Shown piece after piece: positions 10,182-63,485 of a DNA stretch of 64,000 nt. The notes beneath the pieces were generated by a model. That model saw only the letters and a list, made by a program, of their open reading frames with translations, did not search any database and was not told where the DNA came from. The stretch's first letter is position 1; every line of letters begins with the position of its first letter. The stretch covers positions 41,888-105,887 of the IMG/VR virus record IMGVR_UViG_3300032046_000006. One strand, written 5' to 3'. A program made the translations under genes and the position numbers. The stretch is from a virus.

Positions 10182-10898
10182 TTAATTAGTTAGTTTATCT
10201 TTTATTTGCTGTCTTAATTCCATTTGATTATACCTAACATCTGACATTAAATTAAACATTGTTGGGTAATCGACTTTCTCGAAATTTTGAATCGCCGATT
10301 GTGGCGATACATTAAAAATTTTTGATTTAGAATTATTAAAATGTTTAAAAAATCTATCTGGGTCGTTGTGATTATAATATGAAACAAGTCCACTCCCACG
10401 ATGTAAAATTTTTTTTCCGTAATAATGAATGTCTTCTTTAGTTTGGGTTATCTTTTTATCTTTTGGATTTAGTTGCCCATAATCGAATCCGCATAAAAAT
10501 AGATTTTCAGGTTCAAACAATAAAGCCAGTTGCAAAGAAAAAATCCCAGTTAAAAAAGTTAAAAAACCATCTCGTAATGGATTATCTGAATAATTAGCAT
10601 TTCTTTTTAATAAGATAGTATTGGGATGTATTATTAGATTGGCTTTTGGTTTCATTGTACTGATAATTAGAGGTTCCTCTTTTAATCGTTCATAAATATC
10701 GGGATGTCTAGCAAGATTGGTAGAACGATAAAATTCCCTATCACAACAAGTTAAAAGAGTATGGTCAAAATGAAAAAAGGAAAAATTGCATACTATCACA
10801 AACTTATCTTTTATTTTATCTTTTAGACCTAAAGAGATTCCGTCAGATACAGATTTTCCTCCACCAATAATTATGATTTCTTTTATTTCTGGCACCAT
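10182..10898 (-). CDS. MAF/DUF115-like or sialyltransferase-like glycan enzyme
   Basis: A 238-residue Rossmann-like protein. The N-terminus has EIIIIGGGKSVSDG, the nucleotide-sugar-binding-like loop of DUF115/MAF and GT29/GT42-like enzymes. A later LFLCGFDYG matches the conserved IYGFDF-type strand of those families, also seen in the 11224 product. An AAGGATGTAA site precedes the ATG. It is the most 3' gene of the glycan cassette and its stop abuts the + strand tail block. Transferase activity is inferred. Confidence 0.65.
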   Translation of the reverse strand: MVPEIKEIIIIGGGKSVSDGISLGLKDKIKDKFVIVCNFSFFHFDHTLLTCCDREFYRSTNLARHPDIYERLKEEPLIISTMKPKANLIIHPNTILLKRNANYSDNPLRDGFLTFLTGIFSLQLALLFEPENLFLCGFDYGQLNPKDKKITQTKEDIHYYGKKILHRGSGLVSYYNHNDPDRFFKHFNNSKSKIFNVSPQSAIQNFEKVDYPTMFNLMSDVRYNQMELRQQIKDKLTN

Positions 10899-11074
10899 TT
10901 ACATCCTTTTCCTCTTCTAAATTTGAAATTAGGTAGATTGCGTAAACAGTTAGGGCATTGCTCTATTTTAGAGCATTTTGGCTCATAAAATGCCACTTTT
11001 CTGCTTGTTTTATGCTTAAACCCACATAATATATGTATTTCTTCTAATAATCCTCTAATCAGGTCATTCTTCAT
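10883..11074 (-). CDS. Small zinc-ribbon protein
   Basis: A 63-residue basic protein with CPNC and CKWC pairs near the C-terminus plus a preceding CSK, suggesting a zinc ribbon. It overlaps the next gene by 16 bp and the upstream 52-codon gene by 11 bp. Function unknown. Confidence 0.6.
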   Translation of the reverse strand: MKNDLIRGLLEEIHILCGFKHKTSRKVAFYEPKCSKIEQCPNCLRNLPNFKFRRGKGCKWCQK

Positions 11075-11222
11075 TTTTTACCTTTCTTATTTCCCAGAAT
11101 TTTTTACGAACAATAGTTCCATCTAATAAACGAATATCTAAATCTTCGGAATAAATTTCGATAACATTTCCCTCACATACTTGATTATTGTTTTTCACTA
11201 ATACTGGGCACCCGAGGTACAT
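11064..11222 (-). CDS. Small SH3-like barrel protein
   Basis: A 52-codon gene with an AAAGGATAAA leader, starting just after the 11224 stop. The product (LGCPVLVKNN, then VIEIYSEDLDIRLLDGTIVR) has the alternating short strands of a KOW/SH3-like barrel. Function unknown. It fills an otherwise empty 150-bp gap. Confidence 0.6.
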   Translation of the reverse strand: MYLGCPVLVKNNNQVCEGNVIEIYSEDLDIRLLDGTIVRKKFWEIRKVKNEE

Positions 11223-11223
11223 T

Positions 11224-11781
11224 TTATCCTTTTATTAGTTTAATATTTTTCTTTTCTTTTATCCAATTTAAAATTAAATCTTTTTCAAAATCACCAAGGT
11301 GCCAAGGTTGTGTTTTTAAATTATGGTAAAAAGTCCCCGATTCAAAAAAATCAAATCCATAAATAGTTAATGATTTAAATTCTATATATTTTATTAAAAA
11401 ATGTATTGCTAAAAGTCCGGTCGAAGGAAGTTTATCTTCGGGAAAGAAAAATTTAAGTTCTCTCCAATCTTCGGCTGGGTTTTGGAAAGCATTTTCTTTT
11501 ATCCAATCTGTTGCTAATCTATTATCTGCGGTCATCCATACGACATACTTTGCATTAAAATTGCGTTTTAATTCTTCTTTGAAGCGGGTAGATATAAATA
11601 ATACATCAGTTCTTTTTCCTATAAATTCTTCTTTTCCTTGAGAAATCCCCCGGTTCATTCTACAAATTATATCAAATTTTTCTATGTCTTTTTTGGTATT
11701 TAATATACTACGGGCATTTCCTAATAAACAAATATCTTTATCCTTTAAATATAATTGTAACTTAGTTAGGTTAGTTTTCAT
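11224..11781 (-). CDS. GT29 (sialyltransferase)-like glycosyltransferase
   Basis: A 185-residue enzyme with the layout of GT29-like proteins. The N-terminal L-motif-like part is DICLLGNARSIL followed by FDIICRMNRG. The S-motif-like part is LPSTGLLAIHFLI, then LTIYGFDFFESG and a His in FYHN. This family transfers sialic acid or related sugars from CMP donors. The ATG overlaps the upstream stop as ATGA. It is shorter than eukaryotic sialyltransferases, as bacterial and phage members usually are. The sugar donor cannot be deduced. Confidence 0.75.
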   Translation of the reverse strand: MKTNLTKLQLYLKDKDICLLGNARSILNTKKDIEKFDIICRMNRGISQGKEEFIGKRTDVLFISTRFKEELKRNFNAKYVVWMTADNRLATDWIKENAFQNPAEDWRELKFFFPEDKLPSTGLLAIHFLIKYIEFKSLTIYGFDFFESGTFYHNLKTQPWHLGDFEKDLILNWIKEKKNIKLIKG

Positions 11782-12374
11782 TTTAAATGCCTTGTTTTCC
11801 TCGATAACTGATACTGTTCGATTATCGCATTATCTATCGGATTATGAGTTAACCCCTTTGGTGTTGTAGGAATATAACAATATTCCCAAGGCAAATTAAA
11901 ACAGGTTATTTCTGGATGGCATTTTAATAACTCAGTCAATTCGTGTCTGTGAGAATGAGTTATATTGGCAATGATTTTTGCAAGTTCTTCTAATAACAAT
12001 TTGGTTTTATTATTATTTTTTATAAATAAAGTTCCATCCAATAATTCTAATCTTTCTTGAGTTTTTCCGAAATGTTTTTTCCAAGATAAAATATGAAATC
12101 CTAAATCTTCAGTAATTTCAAATAAAAGAGAGGGGTATCGCAAAATATTGGCATCGGCGTCGACCCAAACAAGGTCTTCAGTAGAACTATTCAATTTTTC
12201 TAAAATAATATCTACTTTATGAGAACTATTTTTTTGCCATTTACCGAGAGATTCAAAAGGTTTAACCCAATAATTGAGATTAAATTTTTTAAATGAAGGA
12301 ACGAGTACATTATTGATTTGTTCTTCATAAGGAGTGTTGACAGTGTATCCTGATATGAAAATTAAATTATTCAT
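11778..12374 (-). CDS. GT-A-like glycosyltransferase with DxD motif
   Basis: A 198-residue protein with a nucleotide-diphospho-sugar transferase feel: LVWVDADAN supplies a DxD metal/nucleotide motif. It is clearly paralogous to the C-terminal 180 residues of the neighbouring 1054-residue protein (RYPSLLFEI against SYPSLFDEI, LPWEYCYI against LPSEYCYV). Unlike that copy, its DxD is intact. It starts 3 bp downstream of the larger gene's stop. Confidence 0.7.
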   Translation of the reverse strand: MNNLIFISGYTVNTPYEEQINNVLVPSFKKFNLNYWVKPFESLGKWQKNSSHKVDIILEKLNSSTEDLVWVDADANILRYPSLLFEITEDLGFHILSWKKHFGKTQERLELLDGTLFIKNNNKTKLLLEELAKIIANITHSHRHELTELLKCHPEITCFNLPWEYCYIPTTPKGLTHNPIDNAIIEQYQLSRKTRHLK

Positions 12375-15300
12375 TTAATAATGACTAATAATTGGGACTA
12401 TTGTGGGAGATTTTTTATTGGTAGAAACAACATAGCAATATTCAGAAGGTAATTCAAATAATTTTATGTCTGGATTTTGTTTTAAGGCTATCTCAAAAGC
12501 GATTCGCTGTCTTTGTTCGCAATTAGGTAACTCTTTTTCCCATGAATCGAGAAATTTTAATACTTTTTCGTTATTTCTTAAAAATATAGTTCCGCATAAA
12601 GGATGTTTTGGAATAATCTTGTTATGTATTTTTGTTTCTTCTGTATAATGAATGGCAATGTCATAATATTCTGGAATTTCATCAAATAAAGAAGGATAAG
12701 AATTAATAGTTGCGTCAATATTTATGAATATGACATCTTCTTCATGAGTTAATAAAAACTGCTTGATAAAATCAATACGATAATTGCTATTTAGTCGCCA
12801 ATTTCCTAAAGAAGGAACTTCATTAATATAATAATTTAATTTGAGATTTTTTACAGAAGAAAGTAGATATTTTTCGGCGATAGATTTTTGCTCATTAATA
12901 TAATAACTGATTATTGTGTTATCTAATTTAGTAGAAACTATAATATTGGGGGCTGTTTTGATTTCAGTTAAATAATTATTTGTAAGATTTTTTATAGTTT
13001 CATAATCCTTTTCATAAATTGATTTGTAAATTTTATCCCATTTGGGTTGCAATAAAGACCAACTAAAATATTTTTCAACCCATAAACGATTTCTTTCTCC
13101 TATTTGTTTTCTTAATTTAGGATTTTGTTTTAAAATATCCAAACATTTATTCATACTATCAACAGTTTTATCTTCTTCAACAGGGACTATCCATTGAGGT
13201 TCAAGAAGTAATCTAATAGACCCAACATCGGTAGAAATCACAGGTATTCCGCATGCCATTGCCTCCAGAACTACTCTTGGCATAGCTTCACTTGAACTCG
13301 TCAATACAAGAACATCGATAGTTTTATAGAACTCTTTCATTGGGTCTAAGTTTGTTTCTTTAAGAAAGAGTTTTTCATTATGTCCAGAACATTGTTTGAT
13401 TACTGGGTATTTTAATTTATCAAGCAAATGTGTTCTTTTTACTGGGGCTTCTCTTCCCACCCAGCCAACATTAAATCTATTTCTATTAAATTTATTGGGA
13501 AGAAAATAATTGGTATCTATTCCTTTAGGTAACCATACGGTTTGTTTAGGTAAATATCTTTTTTTAATGGTAGGTAAAAAATTAAGAGATAGAGTAGCAA
13601 ATAAATCAATATATTCTGCGGGATATTCACGATTTGCTTCTCCTCCATCAGACCCGATTATTATTAATCCACTTTCTTTCGCTTTTTTTAAAATGGGAAT
13701 ATTATAAGAATGAAACATAACTGGAGAATGGAAATACATTATATCATATTTCGTGAAGTCAAAATCATTAAGTTTTTCATATAATTCTTCTATTTTAATA
13801 CAATCTAAATTATATTTGGAATATTTTTTCCGTTCTAAATAATTAAAATAAAACGCCCATCCATACTGGTCTACTATTTCAAGAATTCTTAAAGAGGGAT
13901 TAATTATTGTTTTTGCTTTTTTAAGAAAGTCGTCAGTTATCAATTCTATAGTATCAAAATCGTCATAATATAAAGATTTAAATACTTTATCCCAAAGTGG
14001 TTGATTAACTTTCCAACTAAATTGTTCTTCCATTCGTTCTCTGTTTTTTTTACCTATTTCTTTTCTCAGATTTGGATTTTTTTCTAATAATTTCAATTTT
14101 TGATTCATTTCTTTAATACATTGAGTTTGTTCAATGGGAACCATCCATTCTTCATTTAAAAGAATAGGAACACTACCAACAGGGGTAGAAATTACAGGGA
14201 TTCCGCATGCCATTGCTTCTAAAACACTTCTTGGCATACATTCTTGCTCGCTCATAAGAACTAAACAATCCAAAGATTGATAAAACTTTTTCATTGGTTC
14301 TAATGTTCGTGTTTCTATAAAGAATTCTTTTCCATGTTGCGTTTGAGTTTCAATTGGGTAATTTAATTGTTGTAAAAGATTATTTCGCTTTTCTCCACAA
14401 TTTATTCTTCCTACCCAACCCACTTTAAATTTTGTGTTATCAAATTCTTTTTTAGGTAAAAAGAAGTTAGTATCAATAGATTCTGGCAAAAAGACCACAT
14501 GGATTCCTGGATAAGTTTTTTTTAATTTTTCTATATCATTATAATCAATCGCCACAATTAAGTCAGCATAAGGATATTTGCCTAATATCATACCTGAATG
14601 TGCTCCAATAATTTTGGTATTTTTAAATTTTGGAGATTTTTTGATTTCTGGAATAATATTAAAAACGCTATTACTGATATTAGTTTGAGGAAAATAAATA
14701 ATATCAGGAGTTTTAGTTTCTAAATATTTATTTAAATCTTGCAATCGGCAATATTCTATATTATGCTCGCTATATTTTTGTTGTTCTTTTGCTATAAAGA
14801 AATAAGCCCATCCGAATTGGTCAATTACTTTGAGTATATTTAATTTTTTGGGGTTGAGTTGAGTATTTTTTATATTAAAATCAAGATTTAATTTGGCAGA
14901 ATATACTCCTAATAACGCCCAAAAATCGATTTCGTTAAATCCGCACAATAATCTTTCTAAAAATATTTTTTCAAAATCCCCCCATCCCGTCCATTTATAT
15001 TTTTTAATTTTTTGAGTTAAAGTATAATATCTTTGATAAATCAATTTATTAGTCCACAAAGGCGAATGAATTCCCATTACCATTTTATTCTTTAGGGTTT
15101 TATATCCATTTTTTTCTATTTGTTCATGAAAATCGGATGTTCCGTCTGTATTGGTGGAATCATTCAATATATTAAATTTATAATTTTTTACTATTTCGTA
15201 TTTATAGCATTTAAGAGCATCAATTTTCTTGTTTAAATGTTCATCCAAAAGTTTAAAAATATAACTAAATGTTTTGCTGTCGCTCTGTTTTAGAGTATTA

Positions 15301-15539
15301 TAAACAATCTCAATAGCATTAGGATAAAGAATAAAATCTCCATCACATTGTATAAAATAAGGAGTTTTGCATCGATTAATCATTTCTTGCATTGCTTTAT
15401 TTTGAGGACATATATCTTTTATTATATCTAATTTAAATTGAACTGTTTGTTTTTTTAATGCTTCTATACAACCAAGATAATTAGGATTGCCCTCAATTGA
15501 TAGAACAAATACAGTTAAACTTGCTGATAAATCTACCAT
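12375..15539 (-). CDS. Four-domain glycosyltransferase with tandem GT4 domains
   Basis: A 1054-residue multi-domain enzyme. Residues 7-215 are GT-A/GT2-like with a DGD motif (66-68). Residues 234-525 and 551-842 are two homologous GT4-type GT-B domains; each starts xxIVDQxGWA, has VGWVGR, and carries the Ex7E motif (E433/E441 and E751/E759) followed by EAMACGIPVIST. Residues 870-1054 resemble the 11778 product, but the DxD there reads NID. It could add several sugars in sequence. It overlaps the WbqC-like gene by 7 bp. Confidence 0.88.
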   Translation of the reverse strand: MVDLSASLTVFVLSIEGNPNYLGCIEALKKQTVQFKLDIIKDICPQNKAMQEMINRCKTPYFIQCDGDFILYPNAIEIVYNTLKQSDSKTFSYIFKLLDEHLNKKIDALKCYKYEIVKNYKFNILNDSTNTDGTSDFHEQIEKNGYKTLKNKMVMGIHSPLWTNKLIYQRYYTLTQKIKKYKWTGWGDFEKIFLERLLCGFNEIDFWALLGVYSAKLNLDFNIKNTQLNPKKLNILKVIDQFGWAYFFIAKEQQKYSEHNIEYCRLQDLNKYLETKTPDIIYFPQTNISNSVFNIIPEIKKSPKFKNTKIIGAHSGMILGKYPYADLIVAIDYNDIEKLKKTYPGIHVVFLPESIDTNFFLPKKEFDNTKFKVGWVGRINCGEKRNNLLQQLNYPIETQTQHGKEFFIETRTLEPMKKFYQSLDCLVLMSEQECMPRSVLEAMACGIPVISTPVGSVPILLNEEWMVPIEQTQCIKEMNQKLKLLEKNPNLRKEIGKKNRERMEEQFSWKVNQPLWDKVFKSLYYDDFDTIELITDDFLKKAKTIINPSLRILEIVDQYGWAFYFNYLERKKYSKYNLDCIKIEELYEKLNDFDFTKYDIMYFHSPVMFHSYNIPILKKAKESGLIIIGSDGGEANREYPAEYIDLFATLSLNFLPTIKKRYLPKQTVWLPKGIDTNYFLPNKFNRNRFNVGWVGREAPVKRTHLLDKLKYPVIKQCSGHNEKLFLKETNLDPMKEFYKTIDVLVLTSSSEAMPRVVLEAMACGIPVISTDVGSIRLLLEPQWIVPVEEDKTVDSMNKCLDILKQNPKLRKQIGERNRLWVEKYFSWSLLQPKWDKIYKSIYEKDYETIKNLTNNYLTEIKTAPNIIVSTKLDNTIISYYINEQKSIAEKYLLSSVKNLKLNYYINEVPSLGNWRLNSNYRIDFIKQFLLTHEEDVIFINIDATINSYPSLFDEIPEYYDIAIHYTEETKIHNKIIPKHPLCGTIFLRNNEKVLKFLDSWEKELPNCEQRQRIAFEIALKQNPDIKLFELPSEYCYVVSTNKKSPTIVPIISHY

Positions 15540-16192
15540 TTTTTTTCTCCGCAGTTAAAAAGATAATCAATTGCTGAAAGTCCAGGTAAGAATGGTTCAT
15601 ACATCTGATTATAGATAGGATGTTCAAATTCGTGAAAGACCACATTTATTCTTGCACACTTAAATAGAGGTAAATCTAAGTAATCCATTCCACTCTGTCC
15701 AGATAAATAAGTATCTGCTCTCAACATTTGGCAAATTTCCAAACATTTTCCAGAACCATGTTTAGAGTATAAATTGAGATTAGAAGTAAATTCAATACGA
15801 GGTTTAATATTAAACCAGTTTAACATTTGACATAATAATTCATAATTATAATCAAATAAGAAATCATATTTTTTATTAATAATCTCTTGAATTTTCGGAA
15901 AATATTTATCGAAATAAGAAGATTTAGAGTAATTTTGTTGAATCGAATTTAACATTTTTCTTTGCCAATCGGATTCATGTACTACTTTTACTTCTTTAAA
16001 ATTTAAACCAAGGTGAAAGTTAGTAGGAATAGTAACCCATTGGCAACCTTGCGGGGTTCTGATTTTGTTGCGATTGTCATAATAATTCTTTTTCACTTGA
16101 AAAGTATCTGCAATTACAAAAGTATCTGCTTTTGAGACTTTATCGAAAAATCCTAAATATGACAAAAACTCTGGTTGGTGAATCACTAACAT
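15533..16192 (-). CDS. WbqC-like family protein
   Basis: A 219-residue protein with the hallmark WbqC start: HQPEFLSYLGFFDKV, then FVIADTFQ and NRNKIRT, and later GMDYLD and FLPGLSAIDYLFNCG. WbqC-like proteins occur in O-antigen and nucleotide-sugar modification clusters; some are thought to modify amino sugars with amino acid or acyl groups. It lies between the deacetylase and the large glycosyltransferase, which fits amino-sugar modification. Confidence 0.88.
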   Translation of the reverse strand: MLVIHQPEFLSYLGFFDKVSKADTFVIADTFQVKKNYYDNRNKIRTPQGCQWVTIPTNFHLGLNFKEVKVVHESDWQRKMLNSIQQNYSKSSYFDKYFPKIQEIINKKYDFLFDYNYELLCQMLNWFNIKPRIEFTSNLNLYSKHGSGKCLEICQMLRADTYLSGQSGMDYLDLPLFKCARINVVFHEFEHPIYNQMYEPFLPGLSAIDYLFNCGEKKW

Positions 16193-16827
16193 TTATACTC
16201 CATTTTTATAATATCAAATACTTCACTATATTTACATCCCAATTCTATGCCTCTTAATGTCGCTAAAGAAGTAACCAAATCTTTCCAATAAAGATATTTA
16301 GAATATTGACTTTTATGTTCTTGTAGAGATTTTAATTTAATGTTAAGAAAGTTGTCAATATTCACATAAAGTAATGGTCTGAATAATTGAGTAGATGTTT
16401 TAGAAGGAAATAAAGTTTCGAACATCCAAATAGTTGGGCAATATCTTGCTGCCGACATTACTGCTCTTGCAGTATTAAAATGGTCAGAATGACTCTCATT
16501 GAGGGCGTGAGTTATGATAATGTTTGGTTTAAAAATATCCATCCATCTATTTAACGATTCTATTAGATTAGAATTGAAAGGAACATCTTTCGTGGGATAA
16601 TTTAAACAAATCATTTTTTGTACTCCCAAAACTTCAAAACTCTTGACTCCTTCTTCTTTTGCTTGTTGTTCTGTTCGCAAGATAGCCCCATTATAGGAGG
16701 TATAATCTGATTTAGTAACTGTAATAGTCCATACAATATCTCCTTGAGAAGTAAATTTTGCAATAGTTCCTCCACAGGAGAGAACTGCATCATCAAAATG
16801 TGATTCTACAATTAGTATATTTTTCAT
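16186..16827 (-). CDS. PIG-L (LmbE-like) N-acetyl-sugar deacetylase
   Basis: A 213-residue zinc hydrolase of the PIG-L family. The metal motif HFDDAVLSCGG (residues 10-20, family consensus HPDDE) and the downstream HSDHFNTARAV are intact. These enzymes remove acetyl groups from GlcNAc-like sugars, leaving a free amine. The next gene encodes a WbqC-like protein, so the pair may deacetylate and then re-modify an amino sugar. It follows the radical SAM gene directly. Confidence 0.85.
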   Translation of the reverse strand: MKNILIVESHFDDAVLSCGGTIAKFTSQGDIVWTITVTKSDYTSYNGAILRTEQQAKEEGVKSFEVLGVQKMICLNYPTKDVPFNSNLIESLNRWMDIFKPNIIITHALNESHSDHFNTARAVMSAARYCPTIWMFETLFPSKTSTQLFRPLLYVNIDNFLNIKLKSLQEHKSQYSKYLYWKDLVTSLATLRGIELGCKYSEVFDIIKMEYKC

Positions 16828-17730
16828 CTACTTCTCCATAAAATTTCTAAAACAATATTTGCAAGCCAACGGTAATTCTCCATAGAAACCTTTTCTAAAT
16901 TGGGTACAGTATTCGTTTTCCCATACATTTTTATCGTAAATAGTTCCATTTTCTTTCTTGGGGGAAAAAATTGAGTTACAAATCGATATACTTCCATTTC
17001 CATTTATTGATATTCTACTCCACGCCAATCTACACCATTTTTTAAGATTGTTTGGGTCAATTAAAGTCGGATAGCAGGTAATTAAATTTGATTCAGGTAA
17101 AGTTTTTATTTTATCTATTGATTCGTTTTCCCAATAAGTTAAAACTCTATTTAAAAATTCATTCTTGGTTTGTTCATCTTTTATATGATGAGGCAAAATA
17201 TTTATTAGATGGACTTCTCTTACTTTGAGTGTTTTTGCTAATCTTAAAAATTCAGGAATATGAATAAGATTAAATTTATCGCAAACATAAGATAAATAAA
17301 TATTAAATCCTTCTTTTATATATAATTTTATTCCTTCTAAAATATGAATAAATTGATTTTTATTATGACAGATTTTTTCATGTAATTCTTGTGTCGGGGC
17401 ATTAAGACTAACCGAAATATAATTGGGGGAATATTTTTTAAGAATATTAAATCTGTCTATTAATAAACTTCCATTAGTAATAAGTCCGCAATATACATTT
17501 TTTTCTTTGATAAATTTTAAAATTTCTTCTAAATTCTCGCACATAAGAGGTTCGCCAAAACCTGCTAAACATAGTCCTTTAATTGTAGGGAAAGATTCTA
17601 ATAGTTTCTCTATTGCCTCTATAGACATATCTGGAGATGTTTCTATTTTTTTGCTTTGTCTAAGGCAAAAGGAGCATTTAAAATTGCATTTGTTGGTCAT
17701 AAATAAAGTGGCAATAGTAGGAAGATTCAT
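16828..17730 (-). CDS. Radical SAM enzyme with SPASM-like C-terminus
   Basis: A 300-residue protein. The CNFKCSFC motif (CxxxCxxC) near residue 16 binds the [4Fe-4S] cluster, and GLCLAGFGEP is the conserved SAM-contacting strand. The C-terminal part has Cys at CRLAWSRISI, ICNS, EYCTQ, ACKYCFRN, fitting an auxiliary-cluster SPASM/Twitch domain. Such enzymes modify peptides, proteins or sugars. Its place between a methyltransferase and a deacetylase suggests a glycan or glycoprotein target, but the substrate is unknown. Confidence 0.85.
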   Translation of the reverse strand: MNLPTIATLFMTNKCNFKCSFCLRQSKKIETSPDMSIEAIEKLLESFPTIKGLCLAGFGEPLMCENLEEILKFIKEKNVYCGLITNGSLLIDRFNILKKYSPNYISVSLNAPTQELHEKICHNKNQFIHILEGIKLYIKEGFNIYLSYVCDKFNLIHIPEFLRLAKTLKVREVHLINILPHHIKDEQTKNEFLNRVLTYWENESIDKIKTLPESNLITCYPTLIDPNNLKKWCRLAWSRISINGNGSISICNSIFSPKKENGTIYDKNVWENEYCTQFRKGFYGELPLACKYCFRNFMEK

Positions 17731-17731
17731 T

Positions 17732-18346
17732 TTATTCCTTTTTTAATATCATTAAAAATTCTTCTTCGGTATATGTGGTAATTCCATCTGCATACTCTCT
17801 CAATCCAATCCAAGGTATTTTCCGTATAGATAATCGAGTATATCGTTCAGTAAGTTTCATTATATCTTCTTCTAACAGACAATATGGATGGGCAGAATCT
17901 CTAACTTTCTTTTCTTTAAAAAACTCTACAGCTAAAATAAAATGTCCTTGTGGTTTTAATACTCTATAAATTTCATTATTTGTTTTTTCAATATCATCAA
18001 CATGGTCAAGAGCATTAGAGCAAAAAACTACATCAAAAAAATTATCCTTAAATGGGATGTTTTCTCCTTTTGCTTTTAAAATGTTTAATTCAGGAGGATA
18101 ATCGTATAATGTTTTATAAGTTTCTGCTAATGGGTCTATCCCAAATCTTTCTCCTGGAAGAAAGTGCAAAATAGTAGAAATTCCACATCCCATATCCAAA
18201 ATAATGGATCGATTATTAAATTTACAATGGTCAAGAATAGTATCAAAATATCTATATTTTTGCCAATATTCTAATACTTTTTCTTTATTATTTTTAAATA
18301 TTTTTGCCCAGCGTTTTTGAAATAATAATTCGTCTTCGGCTTTCAT
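17732..18346 (-). CDS. Class I SAM-dependent methyltransferase
   Basis: The start is set at 18346, where an AGGAG site and an ATGA overlap with the upstream stop both agree; an upstream in-frame ATG would overlap much more. The 204-residue product has motif I LDMGCGISTIL, acidic residue in FGIDPL, FDVVFCSNALDHV and RVLKPQGHFIL. It is a small-molecule-type methyltransferase of the UbiE/Methyltransf_11 kind, probably acting on the sugar made by the cassette. Confidence 0.85.
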   Translation of the reverse strand: MKAEDELLFQKRWAKIFKNNKEKVLEYWQKYRYFDTILDHCKFNNRSIILDMGCGISTILHFLPGERFGIDPLAETYKTLYDYPPELNILKAKGENIPFKDNFFDVVFCSNALDHVDDIEKTNNEIYRVLKPQGHFILAVEFFKEKKVRDSAHPYCLLEEDIMKLTERYTRLSIRKIPWIGLREYADGITTYTEEEFLMILKKE

Positions 18347-19248
18347 CGAATCATCTCCTGAAAGTGGGAATCTATTATTCGAACTGCAATCTTCATTTCT
18401 GTCATCAAATTGATTTTGGAATTCCATAGTTCTACATCTACAGGTTCTTTAATTAACCTTATAAGTTCTTCGCCATTTGAAAAGGTAGAAAGTTCTAAAT
18501 CCTCCACCATTTCTGGTTGAATGTAAGTTTCTCGGCTTAATTTTTTACTTCTAGGAATTAATGTTCTTATTCCTCTCCCAACCATATCAAGAACAGAAAA
18601 TTCATAACTTCCCGCATGAGTTTGAATGAATGTTTCTATTTGAGAAGTATTATTCATATACTCTTCATAAGTTGGAGTATTTAACATTGGCTTTATATAA
18701 GAAGCAACAGTTTCTTTTTTAGTAAACTGATAAATTTGATATTCTTCTTTAAGAGGTTTTAGCCACTCTGCAATTTCTTTAGATATATCACGACAATCGG
18801 GGCATACTCCTACATCATCTAATAAAATAGTTTTCGGAATTTTGGGTTTATTAATCATAAAATCTTTACTATATGGAAAAGGAATATAACAATCCATCGG
18901 TTTTTGTTTTCTATGTAATCCAAAGAAATAATCAACGGGTTGATTAGATGATTCTATGAAAGAGCAAATTTGATATTTAATTCTTGGTTTAACTTTTTGT
19001 ATTTGGTCAATAGGAGGGTAATGATTCCAAGTATGAATTAATAAAAAATCCAGATTAGGTATTTTATCAAGAAAAAGATTGGGATTGTTCCATTCTCCTC
19101 CTCCAGATAAGGGCAATAAATGCAATGTTACATAAGGCAAAAGTTTAAATTCTTTTTCTAATCCAGCATAATTCATTTCGACTGCTTGAGTGCACTCTTT
19201 CAAAGAATTTGCTCTCCAACCTATTAATCCTAACGAATAATTATTCAT
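18343..19248 (-). CDS. Uncharacterised cassette protein, possibly GT-B-like
   Basis: I choose the ATG at 19248 (AAAGGATTAAGA upstream) giving 301 residues. The first half has LGLIGWRAN and FLLIHTWNHY strands; a Cys pair VCPDC lies mid-protein; the C-terminal part (FSVLDMVGRGIRTLIPRS) resembles the donor-loop region of GT-B transferases. No confident family. Its place at the head of the glycan cassette supports a role in the same pathway. Confidence 0.55.
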   Translation of the reverse strand: MNNYSLGLIGWRANSLKECTQAVEMNYAGLEKEFKLLPYVTLHLLPLSGGGEWNNPNLFLDKIPNLDFLLIHTWNHYPPIDQIQKVKPRIKYQICSFIESSNQPVDYFFGLHRKQKPMDCYIPFPYSKDFMINKPKIPKTILLDDVGVCPDCRDISKEIAEWLKPLKEEYQIYQFTKKETVASYIKPMLNTPTYEEYMNNTSQIETFIQTHAGSYEFSVLDMVGRGIRTLIPRSKKLSRETYIQPEMVEDLELSTFSNGEELIRLIKEPVDVELWNSKINLMTEMKIAVRIIDSHFQEMIR

Positions 19249-19250
19249 TC

Positions 19251-19382
19251 TTAATCCTTTAAAATATAATAAAGTTTCTTTATATTTTCCCAAGTTAATT
19301 TAAATAGTTCACTAGTGAATATAAATAAAAATATAATTATGCCACAAATAAACCCGATAAAAAAATAGAACAATTTACTCAT
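19251..19382 (-). CDS. Small single-pass membrane protein
   Basis: A 43-codon gene overlapping the metallophosphoesterase stop by 8 bp, with AAGGAAAATATA upstream. Residues 4-23 form one hydrophobic helix (FYFFIGFICGIIIFLFIF), followed by a basic, aromatic tail. It fills the gap before the glycan cassette. Function unknown. Confidence 0.55.
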   Translation of the reverse strand: MSKLFYFFIGFICGIIIFLFIFTSELFKLTWENIKKLYYILKD

Positions 19383-22353: not shown

Positions 22354-22366
22354 TTTTTCCTCCTTA

Positions 22367-48838: not shown

Positions 48839-49918
48839 TTAACGAAATTCTGTTGCATTTTTTCTTAATAAATATTCTTCACTAAGATTTTTTAATATCT
48901 TTCTTCCAAAAATTCTACCTTTATATTCATACTTTTCATTTTCTATTTTAGGTTTTATTACACAACCTTCTCTTATTTGTTCTGAACATCGTAAGGACTT
49001 TCCATCGGTGCATAATTTTAAGGTATCATAAGTATATTGCCCCTCAAATAAAACAGGAACATAAGGCAAATTATATTGAATACAAAAAGAAACAACATCA
49101 CACCAATCCAAATATTTATTTTTATATTTTATATCGAAAATAATTAAATCTCTTCCTTTTATTCCATAAGTCAAATCTTGAATTCCTTCGCCATAAATTT
49201 CCCCATAAATAATGTAATCTGTAGGAATGATTTTATCTAAATTATATTTTTTTACCATTTCATACCAAATGTCTTCTTTGTAAAATCCCTTATGAAGAGA
49301 ATATTTTTTCTTTTGGACAGTATGCGATCCGTATACGAATTCATACTTTTTCCCAAACAAAAACATAATTATATTCCATAAATTATTTTTGGGTCTTGGA
49401 AGATTGCCTACCCGAAAATTGCTTCCATGAATTTTCTCGCTAATTATTACTTCTTCGCCTTCCAGAAACATATCCGAAAAGTGTTTGAAGTTTTCTATAT
49501 CAGTATACTTGTCAAATAGAGGATTTAATTTCTTTTTTGTTACCTGTCCTTGCGACTGATTGATTGCTGGCTCCGGAACTTCGTATTTGGTTATACCTAA
49601 CATTTCTGCTACATTCATTCCTTCGTTAAGTTTATAATCTTCTGGAACATCTAAAATTAACCCTTGTGAAATTTCTCCTCGCAACTTTATGGTTCCTACT
49701 CTCCCATTTTTCTTTAAAAATTCTAATTTATATTTTTCAATAAGATTGGTAGGAATAATACTATCAGGAGGGCAAAAAATAACTAAATCCCCTTCCTTAT
49801 ATTGGTCTAATCCTACAATACATCTCCATCCCTTGATAGTAATAATTGAAAGTTTGTCTGCATTGGGATGTTTTTCTATCTTATTTACTTTACAAATTTC
49901 AACAATAAGTTGGCTCAC
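48839..49918 (-). CDS. RNA ligase with N-terminal OB-like domain
   Basis: A 359-residue nucleotidyltransferase. Residues 1-110 look like an OB-fold lead (KIEKHPNADKLSIITI). The ligase core has motif I EKIHGSNFRVG, motif III IYGEIYGEG, and motif IV/V-like REGCVIKPK. The layout matches the DRB0094-type RNA ligases that carry an N-terminal OB domain. It would seal nicked RNA, for example repair of cut tRNA. Confidence 0.82.
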   Translation of the reverse strand: MSQLIVEICKVNKIEKHPNADKLSIITIKGWRCIVGLDQYKEGDLVIFCPPDSIIPTNLIEKYKLEFLKKNGRVGTIKLRGEISQGLILDVPEDYKLNEGMNVAEMLGITKYEVPEPAINQSQGQVTKKKLNPLFDKYTDIENFKHFSDMFLEGEEVIISEKIHGSNFRVGNLPRPKNNLWNIIMFLFGKKYEFVYGSHTVQKKKYSLHKGFYKEDIWYEMVKKYNLDKIIPTDYIIYGEIYGEGIQDLTYGIKGRDLIIFDIKYKNKYLDWCDVVSFCIQYNLPYVPVLFEGQYTYDTLKLCTDGKSLRCSEQIREGCVIKPKIENEKYEYKGRIFGRKILKNLSEEYLLRKNATEFR

Positions 49919-50529
49919 TTCTTCTCCTCTTTAGGTTCTTTTCTTTTTAATTTATATTTTTCGTCAATAAATCTTAGGTATTCAGGTAGTGTATTAAAAA
50001 CTTCTCCTTCACTTACAAGAATTATTTGTAATAAACTTTTCGGCAAATCTTTTTTTGGCATATCGGTAATGAGATAAATGGGAATTCCATGTTCAACTGA
50101 GATACCACATTCGGCAAACGATCCGCATGGGCGATCGCCTTTATTATAAATAAAGGTCAACCAATCTGACATTAATACATAAGCAATATCACCAGGAATA
50201 TGCACTAATTCGTTTTTTCCATCGATGTATCTCTTCCCTTTCCAAATCTCTTTTGCACGTTCTTTGAATAAATCCCAATTTCCTGAAGAAACCCATCCTA
50301 TCATTTTTTCTTTTATTTCCTCAGTTTTCATTCCTGTTTTTGATGCTTCTAATGAAACTGGGTCAATTGGATAAACATTCCTTAATAATAACTCTTTTTT
50401 TGGTTCTGTTCTTTTTCCAGTACCATCATCTTTTTCAGCACAAATTTCCATTGAGCCGATAAGATAGCTTACATACTTAAATTGTTCTTCTAATTGGTCT
50501 GGAGTAGGATATGATTTATTTTCTTCCAT
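49915..50529 (-). CDS. Nucleoside 2-deoxyribosyltransferase-like protein
   Basis: A 204-residue protein. VSYLIGSMEICAEKDDGTG resembles the phosphate-loop start of this family, and PCGSFAECGISVEHGIPIYL the conserved GSxxEhGxAxxxgIPI catalytic stretch. It may exchange bases on deoxynucleosides. It overlaps the RNA ligase stop and the next gene's start. Confidence 0.62.
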   Translation of the reverse strand: MEENKSYPTPDQLEEQFKYVSYLIGSMEICAEKDDGTGKRTEPKKELLLRNVYPIDPVSLEASKTGMKTEEIKEKMIGWVSSGNWDLFKERAKEIWKGKRYIDGKNELVHIPGDIAYVLMSDWLTFIYNKGDRPCGSFAECGISVEHGIPIYLITDMPKKDLPKSLLQIILVSEGEVFNTLPEYLRFIDEKYKLKRKEPKEEKK

Positions 50530-51533
50530 TAATTTATATCTCCCATAAACTGTATTATTTGATTAAGTCTAATTGCACCATTTGTAACAAATGGAGGAAA
50601 AATCCCTACTGAATTTGCAATAATAATAGAAATTATTCCTATTAATTTGCCTTCTAAAGTATAAATTCCCCCCCCAGAAGCACCAAAATAAGAATGGTCT
50701 TGAAAATAACAATAAAATCCACCATACTTAATTATTCGCCCTTTACTAATTACATCATCTATTCCCAAAGGATTTCCCACAACATATATTTCCGAACCTT
50801 GCGTCGATTCGATTTCGGCAAGTTCTGTATATGCTATAGGTATATAATTCGGATTTTCGGGTTTAAAAAGTGCAATATCTCTTTCCTTATCTAACTTAAC
50901 TAACTTTAATTTACAAATAATTTCTCCCTTTTCCTTCAAATATAATAAATCCTTTTCATCTTCCACCAAATGTCCTGCACTTAAAATATAATAATGGTTT
51001 TTATATAAAACAAAACTTCCACTACCTTGCCAGGCTCCTGTATTATTAAATATCATTACATTAATATCTCGAAATTTATTTTCTAATTTTTGAGTATTTT
51101 CTTTATCTTTATTTATTTTTTGTTCAATATTTGAATCTTCTTTTATTTCATCTGTCAATCGTTGTTCTTCTATTTCATTTTTTAAGGAATCTATTTCTAT
51201 TGATATTTTGTCTTTTGTTTGTTGCCCTAATTCTTTTTTTAAAGAATCTGTCTTTTCTAATAATTCATTTTTTGATACCTTATCTTCCATAAGTTTTATT
51301 ATTGTATCTTTTAATTCATCATTTTTAATAAGAATAGTTTTAATCTCTTTTTCTATATTCTCAGTATTTGTATTTATATTATTAATAGAATATCCAATAA
51401 TCGATAACCCTTCGGATATATAAGAAATTTCTCGTTTAATATTTATTATAGTTACAATATCTAATATCAATATAAAAGTCAAACTACCTATTACAAAAAA
51501 TTCGACAATCCGATTTAAAATCTTTTTTATCAT
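50529..51533 (-). CDS. Membrane-anchored, coiled-coil trypsin-like serine protease
   Basis: Start at 51533, AAAGGAAAAATAAG upstream and ATGA overlap. The 334-residue product has a transmembrane helix near the N-terminus (FFVIGSLTFILILDIVTII), about 110 residues of coiled coil, then a trypsin-like domain: ILSAGHLV (His), ERDIALF (Asp) and FGASGGGIYT (Ser). It lacks a PDZ domain. The coiled coil suggests an oligomer at the membrane. Unusual in a phage. Confidence 0.8.
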   Translation of the reverse strand: MIKKILNRIVEFFVIGSLTFILILDIVTIINIKREISYISEGLSIIGYSINNINTNTENIEKEIKTILIKNDELKDTIIKLMEDKVSKNELLEKTDSLKKELGQQTKDKISIEIDSLKNEIEEQRLTDEIKEDSNIEQKINKDKENTQKLENKFRDINVMIFNNTGAWQGSGSFVLYKNHYYILSAGHLVEDEKDLLYLKEKGEIICKLKLVKLDKERDIALFKPENPNYIPIAYTELAEIESTQGSEIYVVGNPLGIDDVISKGRIIKYGGFYCYFQDHSYFGASGGGIYTLEGKLIGIISIIIANSVGIFPPFVTNGAIRLNQIIQFMGDIN

Positions 51534-51778
51534 CTTATTTTTCCTTTCCCAAATTCGATATTGGTTCGGGGATTTTCTTTTTTGAGTTCTCCCAAAGTAA
51601 ATTGCAATAAACATTTATAATTACAAAAATGATATTCTTCCGAACCATCCAAATTACTTCCATATCCAAAAGAAAGAGTAATTGGAACACCTAAAAATAA
51701 ATTGGCTCCACATGTATCGCATAAATATTTCTCAAAAGAACCGCCACATTCTTTACATTTATTTTCTTTTTTCATCAT
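51530..51778 (-). CDS. Small zinc-finger protein
   Basis: An 82-residue protein with CKECGGS, LCDTCGAN and HFCNYKC, three Cys pairs. It is directly upstream of the membrane protease gene and coupled to it by ATGA. Confidence 0.6.
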   Translation of the reverse strand: MMKKENKCKECGGSFEKYLCDTCGANLFLGVPITLSFGYGSNLDGSEEYHFCNYKCLLQFTLGELKKENPRTNIEFGKGKIR

Positions 51779-51945
51779 ATGGTTCCTTCCTTTAATGTTG
51801 TTTTTATAATCTTTTTATCATTATAGCCATAATGAATTAATTCATTTCTATAAAAAAGTGCTTCTTCAATATCTGAAAAAGATTTGGCATAATATACTCT
51901 TGTGTTTCTTTGTGATTCAGTTTTAAAGAATAAGACATAGTGCAT
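51775..51945 (-). CDS. Small hypothetical protein
   Basis: A 56-codon gene bridging the M14 gene (TAATG) and the zinc-finger gene. The product (VLFFKTESQRNTRVYYAKSF) is alpha/beta. Function unknown. Confidence 0.55.
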   Translation of the reverse strand: MHYVLFFKTESQRNTRVYYAKSFSDIEEALFYRNELIHYGYNDKKIIKTTLKEGTI

Positions 51946-52685
51946 TATTTTATCTCCTTAAAATTTTTGAGAATTGAGTTGATAATAGCAATTCCTCCTT
52001 GAACCATTTTTTGACCTTCCATTTTTTTAGGTAATTCGAGAGTAAGAGAATATTTTACTCCCAATTTTTCAAGAAATCCTTCCAAACCAATGTCGTATTT
52101 TGGCGGAATAATTACTCCATTTTCTAAAGGCGTTTTATAAATTGTTTTTGCTTTAAGATAAGAAATAATGGCATCATTCTCCAATAATGCTTTTTGTGCT
52201 ATTGAGGGTAAATTTTCTGCTTTATGTTCGTAACAATAACATTCTGATTTATCAACATCACCGTGAATATCCAAAATTAAATCGGCTGTGCGGGGAAATT
52301 CTTCAAATAAAATAGCCAATTCTGGAACTTTAGAATCTTTCATAAAATGAGTATCGTTATTTGTTTCTTGTCTATTACCGTTGTTTCTATAATTTTTTTC
52401 ATAACCATAAGGATTACAAATTGGAAATATAAAATAATTAAAGTCGGGAAATAAAATCGGTTGTTTCAACCAATGAAGTAAGACATTAATAGAATAAAAT
52501 TCTTCTCCATGATGCCCTGAAGTTAAAATTACTGTCTTTTGAGCCATTTTAGAAATCAATTTTAATGCTAACATTGGGTAAATTTTGTTGGCATAAGTAA
52601 CATAACCAATAATTTCTATACGATAAGGAAGATTAAGATTAATCAACTCAGTAACTAATTTATTATACGACCTTACTGTTTTCAT
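51945..52685 (-). CDS. M14 zinc carboxypeptidase
   Basis: A 246-residue M14-type peptidase. Zinc and substrate motifs: TSGHHGEEFY (HxxE), ICNPYGYEKNYRNNGNR (NPxG...RxN), LILDIHGD (distal zinc His) and LTLELPK (catalytic Glu). The enzyme removes C-terminal amino acids or similar amide-linked groups. It is coupled to the amidoligase gene: its ATG overlaps the amidoligase stop by one base, and they are likely partners. Confidence 0.82.
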   Translation of the reverse strand: MKTVRSYNKLVTELINLNLPYRIEIIGYVTYANKIYPMLALKLISKMAQKTVILTSGHHGEEFYSINVLLHWLKQPILFPDFNYFIFPICNPYGYEKNYRNNGNRQETNNDTHFMKDSKVPELAILFEEFPRTADLILDIHGDVDKSECYCYEHKAENLPSIAQKALLENDAIISYLKAKTIYKTPLENGVIIPPKYDIGLEGFLEKLGVKYSLTLELPKKMEGQKMVQGGIAIINSILKNFKEIK

Positions 52686-53377
52686 TAATTCCTCTCAAGT
52701 GAGTCTCTTACAAAAGTCAAGACAAAATAAATAGCTTCTTTAATTTCTCTATAAGTAACACTGCCAGAAAATAACCTAAATTCAATTGTCTGGTAATCGT
52801 TCTTGGGTAGATGATTTACATTTAAACTATAATATTTTTCGTCTATGTAACCATATGTTCTGAAAGAATAATTACTTGAATTTCTAAACTTATGTATGGC
52901 TTCTTCCGTTAATTCTTTTACTTCATCTTTAGGTAAAAGTTTGCATGTATCTTCAAGTCTAAATTTATCTATTTCAAATCTCTTAACTATATAATCTTGT
53001 CGATGTACCCATTCGTTTATTATTTTGAGTATTTCAGAGTCTTTAAATTTTTTTGCGTCTAAATGAATATGTAATCCACATGTCTTTTTTCTAATAAATC
53101 CCCTATGAACTCTCACTATCGCCAATACTTCCGCTATCTGCATAAGAGATTCCTCATTCCAATAAAGATGATTTGAATTCTCTGGAGAAAGTTCAATTCC
53201 GTTGTCTAATGTCATATCCGACTTGATCTCCCAGCCTTTTAAGGTTTTACCCCTATCAATAAGTTTTTGAGCATCTTCTTTTTTAGGCAATTCAATTTCG
53301 AGTTCTGGTGCGAATCTAATGGATTCTATTTTTATTAATTTGATGTTATCTTTTTTAATTTTCTTTTTTCTTTTCAT
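52685..53377 (-). CDS. Amidoligase family enzyme (COOH-NH2 ligase)
   Basis: A 230-residue enzyme. APELEIELPK matches the fG(x)ElE start of the family; LKGWEIKSDMTLDNGIELSP, CGLHIHLD and IEFRLFSGSV are the remaining hallmarks. Amidoligases join amino acids or peptides by amide bonds using ATP and are found in phage and bacterial peptide-modification clusters. It is immediately upstream of the M14 carboxypeptidase gene. Confidence 0.85.
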   Translation of the reverse strand: MKRKKKIKKDNIKLIKIESIRFAPELEIELPKKEDAQKLIDRGKTLKGWEIKSDMTLDNGIELSPENSNHLYWNEESLMQIAEVLAIVRVHRGFIRKKTCGLHIHLDAKKFKDSEILKIINEWVHRQDYIVKRFEIDKFRLEDTCKLLPKDEVKELTEEAIHKFRNSSNYSFRTYGYIDEKYYSLNVNHLPKNDYQTIEFRLFSGSVTYREIKEAIYFVLTFVRDSLERN

Positions 53378-53378: not shown

Positions 53379-53630
53379 TTATTTAATAAGATGTAACATC
53401 ATAGCCAGCCAATTCCCAATCCCGCACGACCCAGCGTATACCAATAACATTTTTACGGAATCTGATTTATCCTTGGCTATTTTATTTATTATTCCCAAAT
53501 AAATTATCATGTAACTGAACATCAAAATACTTGATAGTCCAATAAGATAACGAGTAAGAGATAAAAGATAAAAAGTATAAAGAGTTTGCTCTCCCAATCC
53601 AATAAAGAATATTAGTATAAGTTTTTTCAT
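53379..53630 (-). CDS. Small membrane protein
   Basis: An 83-residue protein with a hydrophobic start (LILIFFIGLG) and two further membrane segments. It overlaps the upstream gene. Directly downstream of the amidoligase region start. Function unknown. Confidence 0.55.
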   Translation of the reverse strand: MKKLILIFFIGLGEQTLYTFYLLSLTRYLIGLSSILMFSYMIIYLGIINKIAKDKSDSVKMLLVYAGSCGIGNWLAMMLHLIK

Positions 53631-53908
53631 TTTATTTCTGATTTTATCTTCTGTGATAAGTTAATCAGGTCGTGGTCAATTTCGTGCAATTCTCGTAAGT
53701 CTTTTTCTATTTTTTCTACGGTATAATCCCCTACTTTATGTCTGCAAAGAATACAAGATAATTCATCAATTGATGATTCTATTTCCATGACTATTTCACC
53801 CAATCTTTTTGCGTCGTTGTATAATATATCTTTTTGATAAGGGGAAGTATAATTTATATTCAATTTTTGGCAAATATCAATTATTGCACGAGATATGCTC
53901 TTGTCCAT
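53627..53908 (-). CDS. Small helical protein
   Basis: A 93-residue helical, charged protein with Cys-His near the middle (CILCRHKVG). ATGA overlap with its neighbour. No family recognised. Confidence 0.55.
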   Translation of the reverse strand: MDKSISRAIIDICQKLNINYTSPYQKDILYNDAKRLGEIVMEIESSIDELSCILCRHKVGDYTVEKIEKDLRELHEIDHDLINLSQKIKSEIK

Positions 53909-55133: not shown

Positions 55134-55541
55134 TTACTCAAATACAATCTCTTTTCCATTCCACTCTTTGCACCCACACCACTTATCGTGCCATGCTTCT
55201 CGGTCTGCCTCATCCCAAGCCTTGTCTGCCTCATCCCGAGCCTTGTATGCCTCATCCCGAGCATTGTCTGCCTCATCCCAAGCCTTGTATGCCTCATCCC
55301 GAGCCTTGTTTGCCTCATCCCGAGCCTTGTATGCCTCATCCCAAACCTTGCATGCCTCAACCAATTTCACAGGCAACTCTGCTATCGCTTCTTCTGGCAA
55401 TAGCTCAAGTAGGCGCAATCTTATCCCTTGTTCGTTTTTGGGTTTGGTATCTTTTATAGCTTTCACTCGCCCCTCATAATCATAGCACCATTCAAACATC
55501 TCCTTGTGATGAACATGTATTGCCCAACCTGTATTTTTCAT
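55134..55541 (-). CDS. Heptapeptide-repeat protein, copy 1
   Basis: A 135-residue protein. Residues 1-62 are a folded region (HVHHKEMFEWCYDYEGRV, then LLELLPEEAIAELPVKLVEA). Residues 63-110 are tandem A(Y/D/N)KA(R/W)DE repeats, one per 21 bp. The end EADREAWHDKWCGCKEWNG is shared with the second copy at the right edge of the window. It is probably an alpha-helical rod or coiled coil. Function unknown. Confidence 0.7.
   Translation of the reverse strand: MKNTGWAIHVHHKEMFEWCYDYEGRVKAIKDTKPKNEQGIRLRLLELLPEEAIAELPVKLVEACKVWDEAYKARDEANKARDEAYKAWDEADNARDEAYKARDEADKAWDEADREAWHDKWCGCKEWNGKEIVFE
55206..55352 (-). repeat. Seven 21-bp coding repeats
   Basis: Seven direct 21-bp units, TGCCTCATCCCGAGCCTTGT-like on the + strand, coding A-x-K-A-x-D-E on the - strand. 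Units are nearly identical and GC-rich against an AT-rich background. No spacers, so not a CRISPR array. The same repeat recurs at 63776-64000. Confidence 0.92.
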
Positions 55542-61634: not shown

Positions 61635-63485
61635 TTATTTCTCCATAAATTTTTTAATTTGCATTTCCGTCGGATTTAAATAAATCATCGTCGTGATAAT
61701 TGAAGAATGACCCAACATCGATTGAATATATGTCAATGGCACTCCTTTATCCATTAGATACTTTCCAAAAGAATTACCAGTAAGAAATATTGAATTATTT
61801 CTTTTTGCCAGAAATGTTGAATTTTCTGTTTCTGGACACCAAACAATACCTTTATATTGTATCAATTTTAAATTCTTTTCCAAACTACTTTTACTTATTT
61901 GACGATAATTGCGTTTGCATATATATAATCTAAAATAATTCTTATTGTCTTTAGATAAAGTACTGCGATAACCCAACAAAGTACAAATGGTTTGTAATAA
62001 TTCTATTATTTCTGGCTCTTGACCTCTAAATTCAATGCAATTGCATTTTTGTTTACATCCATCTCCTAAAATTAACCCCCGAAAAATATAGTCCAATTCT
62101 AATCTACTTAACTTATATATTGTATTTTTTGGCATTTTATTTCTTTTAAGCCAATTAAAAATCCAATCCTGCGAGTTTACACATATTCTAAAAGTTTTCA
62201 TTTGATATGGTTTCCCATAATTACCGATAATTTTTTTTGACAAACTTTCAGTAAAATCAATGTTTGCTTTTATCAAATGTTCTTTTATTATTTCGCATTT
62301 ATCTTTATTTGCACTCCAGCTTTGACTTATTGTTATTTGTCTACTATCATAATAATAAACTTCACTAATTCCTTTATATTTAGTTTGATGATAGTTAATA
62401 TTTCCATCTGCCATTAATATTCCCAAAACAAATGATTTGTGTATTCCTATTATGTTCTTGCTCTTTTTAATTTTAGCAGAAACTATATATCTAAATGGAT
62501 TAGTAACTTTATTTATTGATTCTAATAAAGGAGCAGTCCATTCATTTTTTTTATTTTTCCAATTCCATTTTTGTATAATTATTTTATGGTCTTTTGTAAA
62601 TAAAGTATCTACACAACCAACTTTTAAATGATTTATTTTTTCGTTTATATTATATTTATAAATATTTATTAATGCTTTGTATTCCAAAATATTCTTTCTA
62701 AAATTATATGTAAGTATTTTATCTTTTATTTTTATTTCATTATATTTCTTCCATCCTTTTTTTGTAAATACTTGGGTATCGGCACTTACACAATGCCTAA
62801 ATAAGTGCGGGCTAATCTTTCTATCCACTAAATATTTATTCATTCTCCTAAAAAAATAATTTACTTTTCCTATTGTCAAATTAAAAACATTAATCGTTTC
62901 TGGTTCGCTTGCAAAATAATCTATTAATTCTTGTTTTAATTTGGGGGAATATTTTTCACAAAAATATACAAATCTCTCCTTATCCCCCTTTCCAATTACC
63001 TTAATTTCACAAGGATTAGATTCCAAATTTATATCTGCTCGTTTTAGTTTTAATAATTCTTCCTTCCTTAATCCTGTCATATAAACAAAATTAATAAATA
63101 CTCTGGCTTTATTGGGAAGCATTAATCTATTTTCATAAGTGCAAAATTGAGAAATTATCTGTCCTAATTCTTCTATTGTTAAAAATTTAGGGGTATTCTT
63201 ATGCCCCTTAAAATATTTTATTTTATACCATTCGGTGTTTTCTTTTGGAATTTGTAAAAATTGAGAGTAAAAATGACGACCCGCTTTAATATATTGGGTA
63301 AGAGTTCTTTTTTCATAGTCGGGATGAGAATTAAAAAAATTAGTTATAATCTCCTGCGTGATATTTTGATAATCTAATTTTTGTTCTTCTAAATAGCCAA
63401 GAAAGATACGCATAATATTATGATAATTAAGACTTTGCTTTCTGGCAATAAGAAAGGATTTATATTTTTCGAGAATTTCATTCAT
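61635..63485 (-). CDS. Tyrosine recombinase (integrase) split by an intein
   Basis: A 616-residue precursor; 276 residues after splicing, XerC/D-like. The N-terminal core-binding domain covers residues 1-95. Catalytic residues: R140 (TGLRKEE), K166 region (IGKGDKE), H227/R230 (PHLFRH), H593 (MLGHSS) and Y602 (IYLN). The intein is inserted between H231 and S572, splitting the HxxRHS motif. Splicing is needed for activity. It could drive integration, dimer resolution or DNA inversion. Confidence 0.93.
   Translation of the reverse strand: MNEILEKYKSFLIARKQSLNYHNIMRIFLGYLEEQKLDYQNITQEIITNFFNSHPDYEKRTLTQYIKAGRHFYSQFLQIPKENTEWYKIKYFKGHKNTPKFLTIEELGQIISQFCTYENRLMLPNKARVFINFVYMTGLRKEELLKLKRADINLESNPCEIKVIGKGDKERFVYFCEKYSPKLKQELIDYFASEPETINVFNLTIGKVNYFFRRMNKYLVDRKISPHLFRHCVSADTQVFTKKGWKKYNEIKIKDKILTYNFRKNILEYKALINIYKYNINEKINHLKVGCVDTLFTKDHKIIIQKWNWKNKKNEWTAPLLESINKVTNPFRYIVSAKIKKSKNIIGIHKSFVLGILMADGNINYHQTKYKGISEVYYYDSRQITISQSWSANKDKCEIIKEHLIKANIDFTESLSKKIIGNYGKPYQMKTFRICVNSQDWIFNWLKRNKMPKNTIYKLSRLELDYIFRGLILGDGCKQKCNCIEFRGQEPEIIELLQTICTLLGYRSTLSKDNKNYFRLYICKRNYRQISKSSLEKNLKLIQYKGIVWCPETENSTFLAKRNNSIFLTGNSFGKYLMDKGVPLTYIQSMLGHSSIITTMIYLNPTEMQIKKFMEK
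61773..62792 (-). mobile_element. Intein in the tyrosine recombinase with LAGLIDADG-type endonuclease
   Basis: Residues 232-571 (340 aa). Block A is CVSADTQVFTKKGWKKYNEI, close to the polymerase intein. DOD motifs are FVLGILMADGNI (352-363) and FRGLILGDGCK. It ends NNSIFLTGN before Ser572, again with Gly in place of the penultimate His. Both inteins are probably from the same family. Confidence 0.93.

Follow-up and report, generated by a model that had tools for sequence, protein, structure and literature searches.

The window analysed here is a stretch of 64,000 nucleotides covering bases 41888-105887 of a 105,887-bp virus record, and all coordinates below are window coordinates. The region of interest is gene-dense and transcribed from the minus strand. 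Eight genes follow one another in the order of transcription, most of them overlapping by one or four bases or separated by a few bases. We refer to the two central genes as AMID and M14, and to the interval between the upstream membrane protein gene and M14 as the slot:

53627..53908 (-), 93-aa conserved island gene (cluster 14 in six loci and in L183-L185)
53379..53630 (-), TM83, small membrane protein, upstream neighbour of the AMID/M14 slot, constant across loci
52685..53377 (-), AMID, predicted GS-fold (Amidoligase_2) carboxylate-amine ligase, 230 aa (PF12224, conserved residues, AF2, Foldseek)
51945..52685 (-), M14, predicted M14/AstE-AspA-fold zinc amidohydrolase, 246 aa (3b2y, NF052223, alignment, Foldseek)
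51775..51945 (-), 56-aa ORF between M14 and the zinc-finger gene (homologue at L008:4014-4184)
51530..51778 (-), 82-aa Cys-rich (zinc-finger-like) protein (homologues in relatives)
50529..51533 (-), membrane-anchored HtrA/trypsin-fold protease with a coiled coil (PF13365, 3.5e-13; NCBIfam degP_htrA_DO, 2.5e-10)
49915..50529 (-), conserved 204-aa gene of the island, next after the protease (deoxyribosyltransferase-like by eye)

A preliminary description of this DNA had noted that AMID and M14 overlap by one base (TAATG), and this overlap is present at 52685. Among the 83 minus-strand junctions of the window phage, however, 12 show a one-base and 12 a four-base overlap. Such packing is thus typical of this phage and gives no evidence of a special tie between the two genes, and we rejected the overlap as an argument for their coupling. 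The same description let the membrane protease and the zinc-finger gene follow M14 at once; both do lie downstream, but the 56-aa gene comes in between. Homologues of the 82-aa Cys-rich protein are found downstream of M14 in L003, L005, L007, L017, L018, L079, L183 and L184. The HtrA-type protease carries an N-terminal membrane segment and most likely starts at 51533, and the 204-aa gene has no Pfam match.

Other parts of the window contain further proteolysis-related genes. A run at 19929-23847 encodes a ClpP-like protease, an MFS/BT1-type transporter, an M50 membrane protease and a peptide deformylase, and a similar proteolysis/export-like run recurs near AMID in some relatives. Within it, there is a 196-aa protein (21787-22377) whose N-terminus (TTTCIVG...GGDSAG) looks by eye like that of proteasome-type Ntn hydrolases, a likeness to which Pfam and PDB searches lent no support. 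Two arrays of the same 21-bp (63-bp) repeat, at 55203-55359 and 63773-63998 and thus about 8 kb apart, encode Ala/Asp/Glu-rich seven-residue units (EAYKARD-like).

AMID, of which the 105,887-bp record holds one copy, matches Pfam PF12224 (Amidoligase_2) with an E-value of 3.1e-18 and 67 bits (cut-off 22 bits) over profile positions 81-244 of 245. Although this match begins at profile position 81, an alignment with 18 diverse relatives shows that the N-terminal metal motif is also present. Residues R21, E25, E27, E29, D54, G60 and E62 are invariant in this alignment, as are C100-G101-x-H103-x-H105, Q127, R140, T197, E199 and R201. The GS-like metal/ATP residues (E-x-E, D..E, H-x-H and E-x-R), whose roles are assigned by analogy, are therefore all kept. 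Foldseek searches with the AF2 model (pLDDT 88.5) recovered YbdK (9e-5), glutamine synthetase and, weakly, PafA, which supports a GS fold although TM-scores are about 0.5. AMID shares this fold and the E-x-E and E-x-R positions with YbdK and glutamine synthetase but, with 230 aa, is much smaller than these proteins of ca. 350-450 aa, to which it is ca. 10-15% identical. Together, the profile match, the predicted structure and the invariance of all GS-type catalytic positions support AMID as a complete GS-fold amidoligase with a putatively intact catalytic set, bearing out the earlier amidoligase call.

The assignment of the neighbouring gene product had to be revised. M14 scores below the Pfam cut-offs both for AstE_AspA (1e-4, 22.4 bits, cut-off 25) and for peptidase family M14 (PF00246; 0.017, 15.2 bits, cut-off 21.6). 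Searches against PDB sequences matched 3b2y, 2qvp and 3ieh (2e-11 to 5e-6; best 3b2y, 1.8e-11). These structures were likewise the top Foldseek matches of the AF2 model (pLDDT 79; 4e-15 to 1e-13), followed by Rep34, CCP5, CphZ and DoeB. The best family is NF052223, the Shewanella N-acetyl-ornithine deacetylases that include 2qvp, 3b2y and 3ieh, with 3.5e-15 and 55.9 bits against an equivalog cut-off of 400 bits; by this score, M14 is a relative of the family, not a member. It has the fold, the zinc ligands and the catalytic Glu in common with the Shewanella proteins at an identity of ca. 20%. In an alignment of eight phage proteins, the zinc ligands H59, E62 and H141, the catalytic base E217 and R100 are invariant. 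Alignment to 3b2y places N109-N110 of the window protein at the carboxypeptidase pair Asn144-Arg145, and none of the eight phage proteins has Arg at the position equivalent to Arg145, which is occupied by N, S or T. Since the nearest families are N-acyl-amino-acid deacylases and Arg145 is replaced, M14 is probably an M14/AstE-AspA-fold amidohydrolase. The M14 assignment of the preliminary description hence stands as a fold, but the C-terminal cutting it had proposed is not supported: carboxypeptidase specificity was rejected because the carboxylate-binding Arg is replaced and the best family consists of N-acetyl-ornithine deacetylases.

Both genes appear to be maintained. Values of dN/dS lie between 0.07 and 0.20 in five pairs of M14 sequences and in five of six AMID pairs, which indicates constraint; in the sixth AMID pair, window versus L001, synonymous sites are saturated and the ratio is unusable.

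We analyzed how regularly the two genes occur together. Homologues of M14 were found in 12 virus records, 11 of them distinct. AMID adjoins M14, either directly or with one endonuclease gene in between, in five of the 11 distinct loci (G000, the window; G003; G005/G006; G009; G013), and G003 shows the same one-base overlap as the window. Both genes are present but apart in two loci (G007, G011). In the remaining four records AMID was not found (G008, G027, G030 and G031, of 28, 25, 51 and 70 kb); three of these are partial (25-51 kb), and in the 70-kb record, which may be partial too, M14 lies close to the record end. AMID without M14 occurs in G001, G016, G017, G018, G019 and G020, all of 86-110 kb, as well as in shorter records. 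Strict co-occurrence was consequently rejected, as six of 11 M14 loci have no AMID in the slot and many AMID records have no M14. Linkage, the yardstick that the preliminary description had set for itself, thus gives a mixed result: it is real but facultative. What stays constant around M14 is instead TM83 on the upstream side, as far as the records extend, and on the downstream side the protease, present at all M14 loci that were read.

The slot between TM83 and M14 varies in content. It holds AMID alone in the window, L003 and L017, AMID with an endonuclease gene in L015 and L018, a LAGLIDADG-like gene alone in L184 and one small ORF in L183, and it is empty in L007, L008, L079 and L185. As it takes up homing endonuclease genes, the slot may be an insertion hotspot. 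Moreover, endonuclease orthologues of 226-228 aa (71% identical, with a Phage_endo_I-like C-terminus) come after AMID both in the slot of L015 and at a second, glycan-related site in L004.

This second site is a surface-glycan gene cluster. In close relatives, AMID is mostly located in such a cluster when it is not the gene directly before M14 (and after TM83, where that side can be read); it lies among glycosyltransferase genes in L001, L002, L004, L012, L013, L019 and L078. Pfam matches in these clusters include GT2, GT9, LicD, IspD-like and short-chain dehydrogenase genes, and several of the clusters adjoin tail-fibre-like genes on the opposite strand. The window contains a corresponding cluster with the following features:

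10182..19293 (-), surface-glycan cluster, the alternative AMID home in relatives (from its gene content)
11064..11222 (-), SH3_50, 52-aa protein, directly before AMID in relatives' glycan clusters (tblastn 60% to L001)
10883..11074 (-), Cys-rich protein (CPNCLR.LPN..F), after AMID in L001 and directly after SH3_50 in the window

The window cluster also encodes a 1054-aa protein with two GT4 domains, together with GT29-like, WbqC, PIG-L deacetylase, radical SAM/SPASM and methyltransferase proteins. L001 has SH3_50, AMID, the Cys-rich gene and the next gene in this order; in the window, SH3_50, the Cys-rich gene and the next gene are directly joined and AMID is absent.

Phylogeny and location of AMID disagree. 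In the AMID tree the window sequence falls into a fully supported clade of glycan-site sequences, and at least three changes of site are needed on supported branches. A scan with a single RecA-like query yielded too few relatives, and an alignment took its place. For the window, nucleotide comparison accounts for the disagreement by a mosaic gene: similarity is to M14-site relatives in the upstream flank and roughly the first 80 bases of AMID, and to glycan-site relatives in the remainder. Informative sites of M14-site and glycan-site type are distributed 15:7 at the 5′ end and 18:130 in the rest, with an approximate breakpoint (Fisher 6.7e-8, a value that serves only as a guide as the sites are linked). 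The M14-type 5′ end suggests that the slot held an AMID before the body was exchanged. Once the mosaic was seen, movement of a whole AMID gene into the slot was dropped in favor of allele exchange; the simplest reading of the sequences would be that an AMID already in the M14 slot was mostly replaced by a glycan-site allele.

Collectively, the two sets of catalytic residues, the operon packing, the purifying selection and the partial, position-specific linkage are observed features that back the pair. They are consistent with a likely active GS-fold amidoligase and a likely active M14/AstE-AspA-fold zinc amidohydrolase in one operon of an uncultured phage lineage, for which functional coupling is plausible, a reading that we favor tentatively and consider quite possible. 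With ATP as energy source, AMID would form an amide between an amine and a carboxylate borne by a cytoplasmic glycan or peptide intermediate of the host surface or virion. Its M14-fold neighbor would hydrolyze the amide of an amino-acid-like substrate that need not carry a free C-terminal carboxylate, and this substrate might be the product of AMID itself, for trimming or turnover. As AMID and M14 are apart or single in about half of the relatives, they may be a make/break pair that comes together occasionally, not a fixed machine; such a partnership appears plausible from the example of the GATase and GGCT neighbors of AMID in other phages. The membrane protease is part of the M14 operon; its predicted membrane anchor, however, makes action in another compartment probable.

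The main rival reading, hardly less probable, is that AMID and M14 are neighbors that share no function, with the TM83-M14 junction serving as a hotspot for mobile cargo and AMID moving or being exchanged with the glycan cluster. The changing slot contents, the related endonucleases behind AMID at both sites and the conflict between AMID phylogeny and site argue for such a hotspot, against which stand the restriction of AMID in close relatives mainly to two sites instead of a scatter, and the observation that neither gene is decaying. Less probable is a solitary role of M14 as N-acyl-amino-acid deacylase or peptide amidase in host metabolism, for instance in the salvage of nutrients or wall peptides, with AMID devoted to glycan decoration. 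The identity of the best M14 family, the M14 loci that have no AMID and the frequent location of AMID in glycan clusters would agree with this role, which we nevertheless regard as improbable, given that the family match (56 versus 400 bits) falls far under the curated cut-off and that the Arg for an amino-acid carboxylate is not kept. The proposal of the preliminary description, a peptide tag written onto and erased from proteins (compare tubulin TTLL/CCP), is very improbable: the deglutamylase CCP5 is among the structural matches of the M14 model and the Pup ligase PafA among the weak ones of AMID, but no tag or carrier protein was identified, amidohydrolases of small molecules are the nearest relatives of M14, the Arg for a C-terminal carboxylate is missing and the linkage is facultative.

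The pairing of AMID with an amide-cleaving enzyme is known from other phages. Phage amidoligases are widespread, and to our knowledge none has an identified product. Of 40 virus records with distant AMIDs, 14 encode GATase_6 and six encode GGACT (gamma-glutamyl-cyclotransferase, GGCT) on the AMID strand at a distance of up to 3 kb; the two are never both close together, so that 20 of 40 have one or the other. M14 was found beside none of these 40 AMIDs with the family profile or PF00246, the former having recovered known M14s elsewhere and having no positive control in this set. Among 22 relatives of the window, a GATase match occurs in one (G020) and GGCT in none, and neither was found in the window's 105,887-bp record. 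The one GATase-bearing relative also encodes a second, larger AMID-domain protein (L025:9518-11200, 560 aa) with Cys-rich N-terminal modules near the small AMID. M14 beside AMID was found only in the window lineage, where GATase and GGCT partners are almost absent, so M14 looks like a lineage-specific alternative partner; this pattern fits a role in common with GATase and GGCT, without proving it. A pattern scan of bacterial and archaeal genome contigs, which reaches close relatives only, found no close relatives of M14 or AMID.

Annotated and published genomes offer similar arrangements. AMID adjoins GATase in Arthrobacter phage Salgado and GGCT in Blautia phage NatCom_24097. In LUZ24-like phages an amidoligase lies beside a GATase in a module that also contains an ATP-grasp enzyme (PMC3890496), and Arthrobacter cluster AL phages encode an amidoligase and a gamma-glutamyl-cyclotransferase (PMC5513430). 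In the OM43 phage paper, cell-wall modification and a block to superinfection are named as functions of AMID and GATase, a suggestion taken over from Iyer et al. 2009 (PMC10580990). The window shares with LUZ24-like phages and Salgado a PF12224 amidoligase beside an amide-acting partner on one strand, but its partner is a predicted metal amidohydrolase instead of a GATase, and the ATP-grasp enzyme belongs to the LUZ24-like module. With Blautia phage NatCom_24097 and the Arthrobacter AL phages it shares an amidoligase adjoining an amide-cleaving family, which acts on gamma-glutamyl amides there and has the GGCT instead of the M14 fold. The M14 gene of Bacillus phage Moonbeam was discarded as a parallel, its setting among tail genes being different. 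Among open papers, no description of an amidoligase-M14 pair was found.

Within the coupled reading of AMID and M14, the M14-fold enzyme might take the role possibly filled by a GATase or GGCT partner in other phages. A broader proposal, somewhat unlikely in our estimate, is that M14/AstE-AspA-fold hydrolases are a third class of phage amidoligase partners that trim or remove the amide made by AMID, with AMID alleles swapped between glycan and M14 operons. If this is true, the M14-fold enzyme would trim an amide on a phage-directed surface glycan or peptide. Phage amidoligases are in any case found beside three unrelated kinds of amide-acting enzyme (GATase, GGCT and M14-fold), and the specificity of the partner should reveal the bond that the ligase makes. 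The presence of AMID in clusters with glycosyltransferase, LicD, IspD-like and WbqC genes points to decoration of a host or virion surface, which would be relevant to the masking of receptors or the exclusion of superinfecting phages.

Intein-like elements were observed in AMID and in other genes. In two related phages (L023, 6732-8396, and L024), an intein-like insert splits AMID directly after the CGLHIH active-site motif and keeps the reading frame; it shows LAGLIDADG and Hint-type matches. The window itself contains a probable intein in a family-B DNA polymerase (33926-37414; LAGLIDADG and splicing-domain matches) and another in a tyrosine recombinase/integrase (61635-63485; weak LAGLIDADG match).
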